Under the pieces are notes generated by a model that did no database searches, was not told the DNA's origin, and saw only the letters and a list, made by a program, of their open reading frames with translations. DNA of 64,000 bases from assembly GCA_024680055.1 (NCBI GenBank), contig JAILCP010000058.1, positions 83,740 through 147,739 on the forward strand. The letters are read 5' to 3'. Position numbers and translations under genes: made by a program. This DNA is from Lachnospiraceae bacterium. GTDB taxonomy: Bacteria > Bacillota > Clostridia > Lachnospirales > Lachnospiraceae. Below, piece after piece: positions 6,146 to 55,612 of the stretch; positions within the stretch are counted from its first letter, which is position 1, and the number at the start of each line of letters is the position of its first letter.

Positions 6146-6151
6146 ACAATC

Positions 6152-6375
6152 AACACCTGAGATGTACGACACCCCTATAATTTTTGAACCTACATCTACT
6201 TAATGGGACTCTTACATTACTGATTGGATGTCAAGCCGTAGTAACTGGCGGAAGGCAGAAGATTATGTTGCGGACACCCACCTAGCTTTCGCTAGGCGTC
6301 AAAAATATAGGAACGGCACCTTGGGCTAACTATTAAAACATTAGAAGCTGCATAGATATCTATGCAGCTTCTTTA
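6152..6375 (+). ncRNA. ssrS: Candidate 6S RNA
   Basis: This 309-bp gene-free stretch has its own promoter and terminator and folds like 6S RNA, the RNA that binds the RNA polymerase-sigma-A holoenzyme. A long closing stem pairs CCTATAATTTTTGA (6174-6187) with TCAAAAATATAGG (6299-6311). A small hairpin CCTAGC-TTTC-GCTAGG (6281-6296) sits on the 3' side, where many 6S RNAs have a central-bubble hairpin. The distal arm includes TTACT/AGTAA pairing. The length, about 190-220 nt, fits. The identification rests on architecture, not on a covariance search. Alternative: an unrelated structured RNA or leader of the SpoIID gene. Confidence 0.68.
6343..6375 (+). terminator. Terminator of the 6S-like RNA
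   Basis: Near-perfect palindrome AGAAGCTGCATAGA / TCTATGCAGCTTCT followed by a short T run (TTTAA). It lies 13 nt before the start codon of the SpoIID-like gene, so that gene depends on read-through or a nearby promoter. Confidence 0.75.
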
Positions 6376-8766: not shown

Positions 8767-9014
8767 ATATGGAAAAAGCGTAGATGGTGCATAGTAGTAC
8801 TTTATTCATCATTCGAGAGAGACGAAATCGTTGGCTGGAAGTTTTGTCATGCTCTGTTAAAGATACGAAATTCACACCGGAGCTTCTGTGTTGAAATCAG
8901 TAGGCACAGACGGGTGATACACGTTAAGTATATTCATGAGAGCCTGCAATGCAGGAATCAGGGTGGTAACGCGGAGTACAGCTTCGTCCCTTATTAGGGA
9001 CGAAGCTTTTTTTA
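8767..9014 (+). promoter_or_regulatory. T-box riboswitch (tRNA-Phe) controlling pheST
   Basis: The T-box signature AGGGTGGTAACGCGG is at 8960-8974, with the TGGT that pairs with the tRNA acceptor end. It is followed by a strong terminator: 12-bp stem AGCTTCGTCCCT / AGGGACGAAGCT (8980-9007) and eight Ts. Part of the terminator's 5' arm can instead pair with the T-box to form the antiterminator. A candidate specifier codon TTC (Phe) followed by A lies at 8871-8873 in GAAATTCACACC, matching the downstream gene. Uncharged tRNA-Phe should promote read-through into pheST and perhaps queA. Confidence 0.93.
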
Positions 9015-54082: not shown

Positions 54083-54505
54083 ATGATTCAAATTATTTCC
54101 GGGGAAAAAGGCAAAGGTAAGACCAAATATCTTTTAGACAGAGTCAACGAGGCAGTAAAGAACGTTGACGGAAACATTGTATTTCTTGATAAGAATACAA
54201 AGCATATGTACGATTTAAGCAATAAGGTTCGTTTGATTAACGTTCCTGAGTTACCTGTAGACGATGCCAGTGAATTTACCGGTTTTTTATGCGGTATCCT
54301 TTCACAGGACAATGATTTGCAAGAGGTTTATTTGGATAGTTTCTTAACCATTGCACATATTGAAAACGATGAGCAGTTTAGTAGGGTGATTAAGAAATTG
54401 AATGTGCTGGGAGATAAGTTTAATATTAAGTTTACATTAAGTGTCTCCAGAAATGAAAAAGATCTTCCTGAATGTGCGAAACAATACGTGGACATTTCGC
54501 TATAA
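54083..54505 (+). CDS. Small P-loop NTPase of unknown function
   Basis: 140 aa, soluble. Walker A is at the very N-terminus (SGEKGKGKTK) and a Walker B-like strand reads EVYLDSFLTI. The rest is alpha/beta and unrecognised; too short for a complete AAA or PilT motor. A good AGGAGG site precedes ATG 54083. It is monocistronic, between the wall gene block and a structured non-coding stretch. Comparable small orphan ATPases occur in Lachnospiraceae, but I cannot give a role. Confidence 0.78.
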   Translation: MIQIISGEKGKGKTKYLLDRVNEAVKNVDGNIVFLDKNTKHMYDLSNKVRLINVPELPVDDASEFTGFLCGILSQDNDLQEVYLDSFLTIAHIENDEQFSRVIKKLNVLGDKFNIKFTLSVSRNEKDLPECAKQYVDISL

Positions 54506-54661
54506 TTTTTAAAATGATTTATATAGGGCCGACCGTTGCGATATGTACCTAGAATCTTGGACACATATTTATGAACTGGGCTGAACACATGGATGCTATC
54601 CTGTATTGTGATATGCCCCCGTCAAGTAGACAGGTTAAATATCTAAATGGAATGTTTAGTT
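54506..54661 (+). ncRNA. Structured non-coding stretch, candidate small RNA
   Basis: No gene is seen here. Two imperfect hairpins follow each other: GATATGTACC...TTGGACACATAT (about 54538-54569) and GGGC...CACA.GGAT-GCT-ATCC...TGTG..GCCC (about 54578-54619). A strong terminator stands downstream at 54662. This could be an independent small RNA or a structured 3' UTR of the P-loop gene. It matches no RNA family that I can name; it lacks the GGAAG of SRP RNA. Confidence 0.4.
54616..54632 (-). repeat. IS-end-like motif TGTCTACTTGACGGGGG
   Basis: Read on the minus strand it resembles the terminal inverted repeat of some clostridial insertion sequences. A related TGTCTACTTAAGGAGG occurs on the plus strand at 54840-54855. 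The two point away from each other and no transposase lies beside either, so at most these are scars. Confidence 0.3.
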
Positions 54662-54696
54662 AATGACCATACTTTATATGAAGTATGGTCATTTTT
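54662..54696 (+). terminator. Strong intrinsic terminator
   Basis: 13-bp perfect stem AATGACCATACTT / AAGTATGGTCATT, 6-nt loop TATATG and a T5 run. It ends the rightward transcript from the P-loop gene or the candidate RNA. Confidence 0.9.
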
Positions 54697-54804
54697 CTAT
54701 GCACACCATTTTTCTTTATATTTTTTTATTCGTTTGTTTTCAGGAATCGGATATTCCATTGGTACTATGGCAGATAAAGCTTCCATTCTTACCTCTTTGA
54801 ACAT
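54697..54804 (-). CDS. Possible 35-aa ORF
   Basis: Reads MFKEVRMEALSAIVP...KWCA. It has a perfect AAGGAGG site six nt before the ATG, but that site is the 3' arm of the terminator hairpin of the gene upstream. No homology recognised; the composition is rich in Lys and Glu, as for a real small protein or gene remnant. It is likely spurious unless transcripts pass the terminator. Confidence 0.25.
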   Translation of the reverse strand: MFKEVRMEALSAIVPMEYPIPENKRIKKYKEKWCA

Positions 54805-54855
54805 AAAAAACCTCCTTAAGTAGATTTGGTTATTTACCTTGTCTACTTAAGGAGG
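54805..54855 (-). terminator. Intrinsic terminator of the 4-TM gene
   Basis: On the minus strand: 14-bp perfect stem CCTCCTTAAGTAGA / TCTACTTAAGGAGG, 17-nt loop, then T6. It lies 31 nt after the stop of the 4-TM gene. The 3' arm also forms the Shine-Dalgarno of a 35-aa ORF. Confidence 0.78.
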
Positions 54856-54885
54856 ATCATATCAGATAGGTGGCAACCTTTTATG

Positions 54886-55344
54886 CTAGGAGTATTTTTC
54901 CTGCGTATTGTTTCTTAAAATAGAAAATAGAGTTCCCAGAGTCAGTGAAATAATAACAATGAAAAAGGCAATAAACATCCAGAATGGTGGACTGATATCT
55001 TCTAATATACTGACCACATTCAGGGATATTGTTGTTAGGATGGCTTGGGTGTAGAACCATAATTTCAAATGATGGAAAACGGTTTCAGAAGATTGTGCTT
55101 TCAAACTGGAAAGGCCATATCGAATTAATGAAACTGCTATCATGAGAGACGGTATTCCGTTGAAAACACAAAGGGTTAAAGTGAGGGTCTGATATTTCAA
55201 ATTTGGCTCTGCCTGATAGATGTCACGAAGTGTGATATAAGTGATTGCAATGACACCTACGATGGCAAGCATGGAGAGGAAACTAAGTAGAACCAGAATC
55301 TTGGGTGAGGAAAAGAAGTTCTGTTTGTTTGGTTTCGTATTCAT
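54886..55344 (-). CDS. Four-helix membrane protein of unknown function
   Basis: 152 aa. Hydrophobic segments at about 13-36, 50-72, 88-110 and 118-142 predict four membrane helices with both ends in the cytoplasm. The N-terminus is polar (NTKPNKQNFFSS). No motif or catalytic residue recognised. An AAAGGAGG site supports ATG 55344. It has its own promoter (TTGTTA-16-TATAAT) and terminator and is the only minus-strand gene between 3.7 and 61.5 kb, which suggests a later insertion. Confidence 0.72.
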   Translation of the reverse strand: MNTKPNKQNFFSSPKILVLLSFLSMLAIVGVIAITYITLRDIYQAEPNLKYQTLTLTLCVFNGIPSLMIAVSLIRYGLSSLKAQSSETVFHHLKLWFYTQAILTTISLNVVSILEDISPPFWMFIAFFIVIISLTLGTLFSILRNNTQEKYS

Positions 55345-55430: not shown

Positions 55431-55551
55431 GGAGTAGAAAGAATATTTATGAAAAATTAATGAATTTAGTATTAAATTAATGTGGAGGAGAGGATTAATA
55501 TGTTTGTTTCAAATGATTTGTAAAAAAGAGGCATGGCAAATGTACCGAGCT

Positions 55552-55612
55552 CCAACCGTTAGATTTTTTGGTCTAACTTTTGGGGGTCACCTCATTGGTT
55601 GGTCCTTTTTTA
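55552..55612 (+). terminator. Nested palindrome with T run (terminator or attenuator)
   Basis: An outer stem CCAACC / GGTTGG encloses an inner stem GTTAGA-TTTTTTGG-TCTAAC and the G-rich segment TTTTGGGGGTCACC; TCC and T6 follow. It lies just before the -10 box TATAAT (55629-55634) of the HlyD-like operon. It could be the end of a short transcript starting upstream, or a dispersed repeat. The stretch 55431-55551 holds only very short ORFs (for example a 7-codon ORF behind GGAGGAG at 55483). Confidence 0.45.

Follow-up and report, generated by a model that had tools for sequence, protein, structure and literature searches.

The interval 54506-54696 of the 64,000-nucleotide stretch of Lachnospiraceae DNA analysed here (the window) was initially annotated as a gene-free candidate small RNA or structured 3' UTR with a strong terminator. 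It indeed contains no gene of annotated size, although a minus-strand ORF of 35 aa, a transposase remnant, lies at its 3' edge. The features recognized at this locus, among them the arms of a putative original terminator of the upstream gene, are as follows:

54083-54505, plus strand: upstream host gene, 140 aa, with a P-loop-like N-terminus, conserved in the family
54525-54535, plus strand: putative left arm of the terminator that the host gene originally had, AGGGCCGACCG, pairing with 55596-55606
54540-54608, minus strand: one end of IS-A, an element of the IS3 family, with its terminal repeat, the transposase region's 3' end and the first end-hairpin arm
54609-54864, minus strand: IS-B, an IS3-family element reduced by internal deletion from about 1.79 kb to 256 bp, with its two terminal repeats retained
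54662-54693, plus strand: inward-facing IS-B end hairpin with T-run, located after OrfB; the terminator of the initial annotation
54697-54804, minus strand: remnant transposase ORF, 35 aa, joining the C-terminus of IS-B OrfB to the region of the OrfA start
54805-54855, minus strand: second IS-B end hairpin, 13-14 bp followed by TTTTTT, inward-facing and terminator-like
54865-54880, minus strand: probable continuation of IS-A with the second hairpin arm, AGGTGGCAACC versus AGGTGGCATCC (compared with L003, L006 and L126)
54886-55344, minus strand: orphan membrane-protein gene, 152 aa, between the IS remnants and inside the apparently split native terminator
55541-55594, no strand assigned: third IS-type palindromic end, IS-C, TGTACCGACC...GGTCGGTACA
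55596-55611, plus strand: putative right arm, with T-run, of the terminator that the host gene originally had, TGGTTGGTCCTTTTTT, just 5' of the next gene

The strong terminator of the initial annotation, there given as 13 bp, was recovered as the hairpin at 54662-54693, which has a 14-bp stem and a 4-nt loop followed by TTTTTC, i.e. a stable stem-loop with a U-run (TTTTT) immediately 3' to it, as in intrinsic (Rho-independent) terminators. Its minimum free energy is -17.3 kcal/mol (z -6.0), and none of the shuffled sequences equals it. The two consecutive hairpins that had also been described found no such support: with the terminator left out, the interval (54506-54655) gives a z of +0.78, and 158 of 200 dinucleotide shuffles fold as well. 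The folding z of -2.57 for 54506-54696 as a whole is thus attributable to the one hairpin. A strict Rfam search returned no family at gathering score in 54506-54696, the 6S, SRP, tmRNA and T-box families included, and a permissive search of the interval yielded eukaryotic hairpin families alone, far under threshold. Elsewhere in the window a 6S RNA (6151-6331, plus strand) and a T-box leader (8772-8994, plus strand) score above the Rfam gathering value. Promoter-like sites in the interval show no enrichment (9 observed, 12.2 expected by chance). In a search of 60 related genomes the interval matches as two parts, query positions 35-104 (54540-54609) and 100-195 (54605-54700), and the two were never matched together in any other of these genomes. 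Its treatment as a single conserved unit was rejected, because matches elsewhere break near 54604-54609 and the halves occur apart; its transposon-end pieces recur at unrelated loci in other genomes.

The left part belongs to an element that we term IS-A, pieces of which occur in 26 of 299 family genomes (own included). Its closest copies in other genomes are 90-96% identical and adjoin an intact IS3-family OrfB, a transposase ending in ...DYYNNKRIQAKTKWMPPVQYR, and in the full copy L126 OrfB (295 aa) and OrfA (219 aa) are both encoded and both match the IS3 family. The right part is the beginning of IS-B; of the same 299 genomes, 48 contain IS-B pieces (own included). Both ends of the window IS-B match the full 1.79-kb copy L108 encoding OrfA (224 aa) and OrfB (321 aa). 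The arms of its terminal inverted repeat lie at 54617-54648 and 54824-54855, and the ORF between the end hairpins comprises the last 32 residues of OrfB, 27 of which (84%) are identical to those of L108, with a start codon that comes from the OrfA end. No intact IS-B transposase and no IS-A transposase was found in the organism's own draft genome (101 contigs). The mini IS-B was also compared with MITEs, short non-autonomous elements that have terminal repeats, occur in several copies and are mobilized by a related transposase: it has kept its terminal repeats and lost its transposase, and we could find no second copy of it in the own draft genome. Membership in the IS3 family was tested on the intact copies L108 and L126, whose OrfB proteins score 256.8 and 296.8 bits against the IS3 model NF033516 (cut-off 160), with the DDE integrase core, and contain rve domains. 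Their OrfA proteins match the helix-turn-helix models HTH_Tnp_1 and HTH_28, and OrfA overlaps OrfB as in IS3 elements. Both IS-A and IS-B have inverted terminal repeats of the form TGATATG...CATATCA, which fits the 5'-TG...CA-3' of the family, and most full-length copies are flanked by 3-bp target duplications (8 of 10 IS-B and 5 of 7 IS-A copies).

The two elements are nested. Intact IS-A copies continue as GGATGCTATCCTGTATTGTACAGGTGGCATCC, a hairpin of -20.6 kcal/mol; in the window IS-B directly follows ...CCTGTATTG and is itself followed by ...AGGTGGCAACC, which places IS-B in the loop of IS-A's hairpin. As the window IS-B has no recognisable 3-bp duplication and its flanks pair modestly (equalled by 5% of window stretches), the nesting rests on homology to IS-A and not on the flanks alone. 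At L123 the right end of IS-B is joined to the same IS-A base in the opposite orientation relative to the window; by sequence comparison, it looks as if this position of IS-A had been hit separately.

Each end of IS-B carries an inward-facing hairpin with a T-run. Across 14 copies the hairpin at 54662-54693 is 95.7% paired (slid controls, 33-51%), with double changes in 7 of its 14 pairs and 22 double-changed cells against 7.3 in shuffles. The covariation that the initial annotation proposed to look for is hence present in the terminator hairpin, but it stems from the hairpin being a conserved part of the IS-B transposon and not from a small RNA. The second hairpin (54805-54855) has a 14-bp stem with 100% complementarity (-22 kcal/mol, z -6.6), and 19 other copies form the same structure from altered stem sequences. 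In this hairpin, which precedes OrfA and leads into a T-run, the terminal repeat is paired with an inverted copy in which the OrfA ribosome-binding site lies. Given such a hairpin and T-run at each end, IS-B probably replaces the terminator that it breaks, and at this locus 54662-54693 probably terminates the upstream plus-strand gene (54083-54505).

The upstream gene has matches in 26 of 36 genomes (own included), its product having no Pfam or NCBIfam match, and its same-genus orthologues have an ordinary terminator directly 3' of the gene. In at least three of these (L025, L026 and L027) the start of the gene that comes next, after the terminator, resembles, as judged by eye, that of the HlyD-type gene of the window. 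In the window AGGGCCGACCG, located after the stop codon, pairs with TGGTTGGTCCT, which is followed by TTTTT (55596-55611) before the HlyD-type gene. When joined, these arms fold with -17.9 kcal/mol (z -3.2), an equal pairing being reached by only 0.16-0.23% of window stretches. The stretch directly left of IS-C was considered as partner of the right arm and discarded, its pairing being weaker (-11.1 versus -19.6). We infer that 1.06 kb, comprising the IS-A end, the mini IS-B, the orphan gene and IS-C, has been inserted in the native terminator's loop. The orphan 152-aa membrane protein has no homologue in 39 relatives. The IS-C sequence 55543-55588 was found in 27 of 200 family genomes (the organism's own among them), in some of these in multiple copies, and no full copy with two ends was found among the copies examined (including L193, L202 and L203). 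Short IS-C palindromes in L202 and L203 apparently also lie in terminator-like hairpins.

Location in hairpin loops extends to the copies in other genomes. All ten two-ended IS-B copies lie in the loops of hairpins, mostly terminator-like ones, and the majority are bordered by an A-run at one end and by a T-run at the opposite end. Their left and right flanks pair with a mean of -17.7 kcal/mol, as against -9.4 (sd 3.3) for 90 swapped pairs, with weak pairs at L112, L114 and L120 that are matched by 17-27 of the 90. Five of seven two-ended IS-A copies likewise lie in hairpin loops; all five have matching 3-bp duplications, and their flanks give -22.4 versus -9.5 when swapped. The flanks of the other two (L127 and L164) are unpaired and match those of L163, and this suggests that they reflect rearrangement between IS-A copies. 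The IS-A flanks of L127, L163 and L164 (G215:C1) are mutual reverse complements, an arrangement suggestive of inversion via recombination between IS-A copies. An empty site was sought for the IS-A insertions in L126 and L153, and no relative with the site was found. Two IS-B relatives on Streptococcus plasmids are also inside terminator-like hairpins. A pattern search for the terminal repeats additionally uncovered palindromes of 36-37 bp made of the terminal inverted repeats alone. In a set of ten IS-like ones, combining these finds with palindromes from the earlier genome matches, nine are in hairpins (mean -21.3 versus -8.4 swapped), with a mean of -6.3 for unrelated matches of the pattern. 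IS-B-like palindromes of this kind and size are found at L168 (G027:C51:11892-11928), L169, L170, L172, L173, L179, L182, L007 and L018. In many genomes such palindromes lengthen the stems of terminator-like hairpins, mostly without target duplications.

Based on these observations we consider it very probable that the interval consists of decayed IS3-family ISs nested in the loop of the intrinsic terminator that belongs to the upstream gene. According to this proposal, IS-A would have entered the host gene's terminator first, IS-B would next have inserted in the end hairpin of IS-A, within its loop, and both transposases would have been lost through later deletions that spared the ends. As both hairpins are intact between convergent genes, the remnant most likely serves both as a terminator, with the left hairpin (54662-54693) now acting on the upstream plus-strand gene and the right hairpin (54855-54805, minus strand) on the minus-strand gene that converges with it. 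The end hairpins of an intact IS-B would stop transcripts coming from outside on either side, and the right hairpin would mask the ribosome-binding site of OrfA in RNA produced by read-through; blocking of activation by outside promoters is a familiar IS strategy. As a side effect, the insertion would supply a replacement for the terminator it broke. The transposases themselves may recognize hairpins, the elements choosing terminator hairpin loops as targets and generating 3-bp duplications.

A small regulatory RNA, or a 3'-UTR-derived one, terminating at 54693 appears extremely improbable, notwithstanding the strong terminator and the precedent of regulatory sRNAs encoded by ISs (Asr9 and Ssr9 of ISPpu9, PMC8450116): the part upstream of the terminator is unstructured, Rfam offers no match, promoter-like sites fall below the number that chance would give, the site is not conserved in the same genus, and the interval is made of two unrelated transposon ends that are found separately elsewhere. 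We thus reject the sRNA half of the initial annotation, while its 3' UTR with terminator roughly stands. It could also be argued that insertion is random and that survivorship, with solely terminator insertions being tolerated, generated the observed distribution. Intergenic insertions are in general less harmful, but tolerance alone does not predict that insertions should lie near the symmetry centre of hairpins with both arms kept, and IS-B hit the identical base of the IS-A hairpin in both orientations (the window and L123); we regard this explanation as highly improbable. A further proposal, which would add to the nested-IS explanation, is that selection has kept the remnant as a bidirectional terminator of convergent genes, i.e. 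as a domesticated mini-IS. Both inward hairpins are intact despite the loss of the transposase, the genes on both sides converge on the remnant and the native terminator appears to be split; a recent deletion could, however, explain the intact hairpins, and the minus-strand gene is an orphan, so that we view this proposal as possible but rather doubtful.

The nested, terminator-targeting IS3-family elements that we favor can be compared with several known systems, though terminator targeting by IS3-family elements is described nowhere in the open-access literature that we searched. IS1272/TnSha1 belongs to the IS1182 family, and its transposase family differs from that of IS-A and IS-B. Like them it targets hairpins, several of them confirmed terminators, without primary sequence specificity (PMC4923244); it inserts bluntly, deletes part of the hairpin and creates no duplication, whereas IS-A and IS-B keep both arms and produce 3-bp duplications. 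The REP-targeting IS1397, ISKpn1 and ISPsy8 share with our elements a transposase of the IS3 family and, as reported for ISPsy8, 3-bp direct repeats and a point of insertion on the symmetry axis of a palindrome (PMC1525189), but they target one repeated palindrome (REP), as opposed to the many unrelated terminator-like hairpins of IS-A and IS-B. IS-A and IS-B insert in the manner of the REP-targeting IS3 elements and use the kind of target that IS1272 uses. The IS1447 group (PMC6211511) likewise consists of Firmicutes-enriched IS3-family elements, in whose description we saw no mention of terminator targeting. The 5'-UTR hairpin of ISPpu9 buries the ribosome-binding site of the transposase as in IS-B, but ISPpu9 inserts in REPs and uses two sRNAs (PMC8450116), none of which were seen for IS-B.

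More generally, we think there is a reasonable case that a widespread set of Firmicutes IS3-family elements has evolved to insert in terminator loops of any sequence and to bring its own inward terminators at both ends, with the 36-37-bp relics constituting a little-noticed class of terminator-embedded repeats. An intergenic covarying hairpin can be a transposon end, and therefore covariation across homologous regions does not in itself constitute evidence of a regulatory RNA. If the proposal is true, every insertion would replace the terminator it breaks and the palindromic relics would persist as extended terminator stems; ISs that seek out terminator loops and re-establish termination would burden the host little as they spread, and this would help explain the turnover of terminators between related genomes. 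It would also mean that their transposases read the shape of DNA, in the form of hairpins, rather than its sequence, a prediction that is directly testable.
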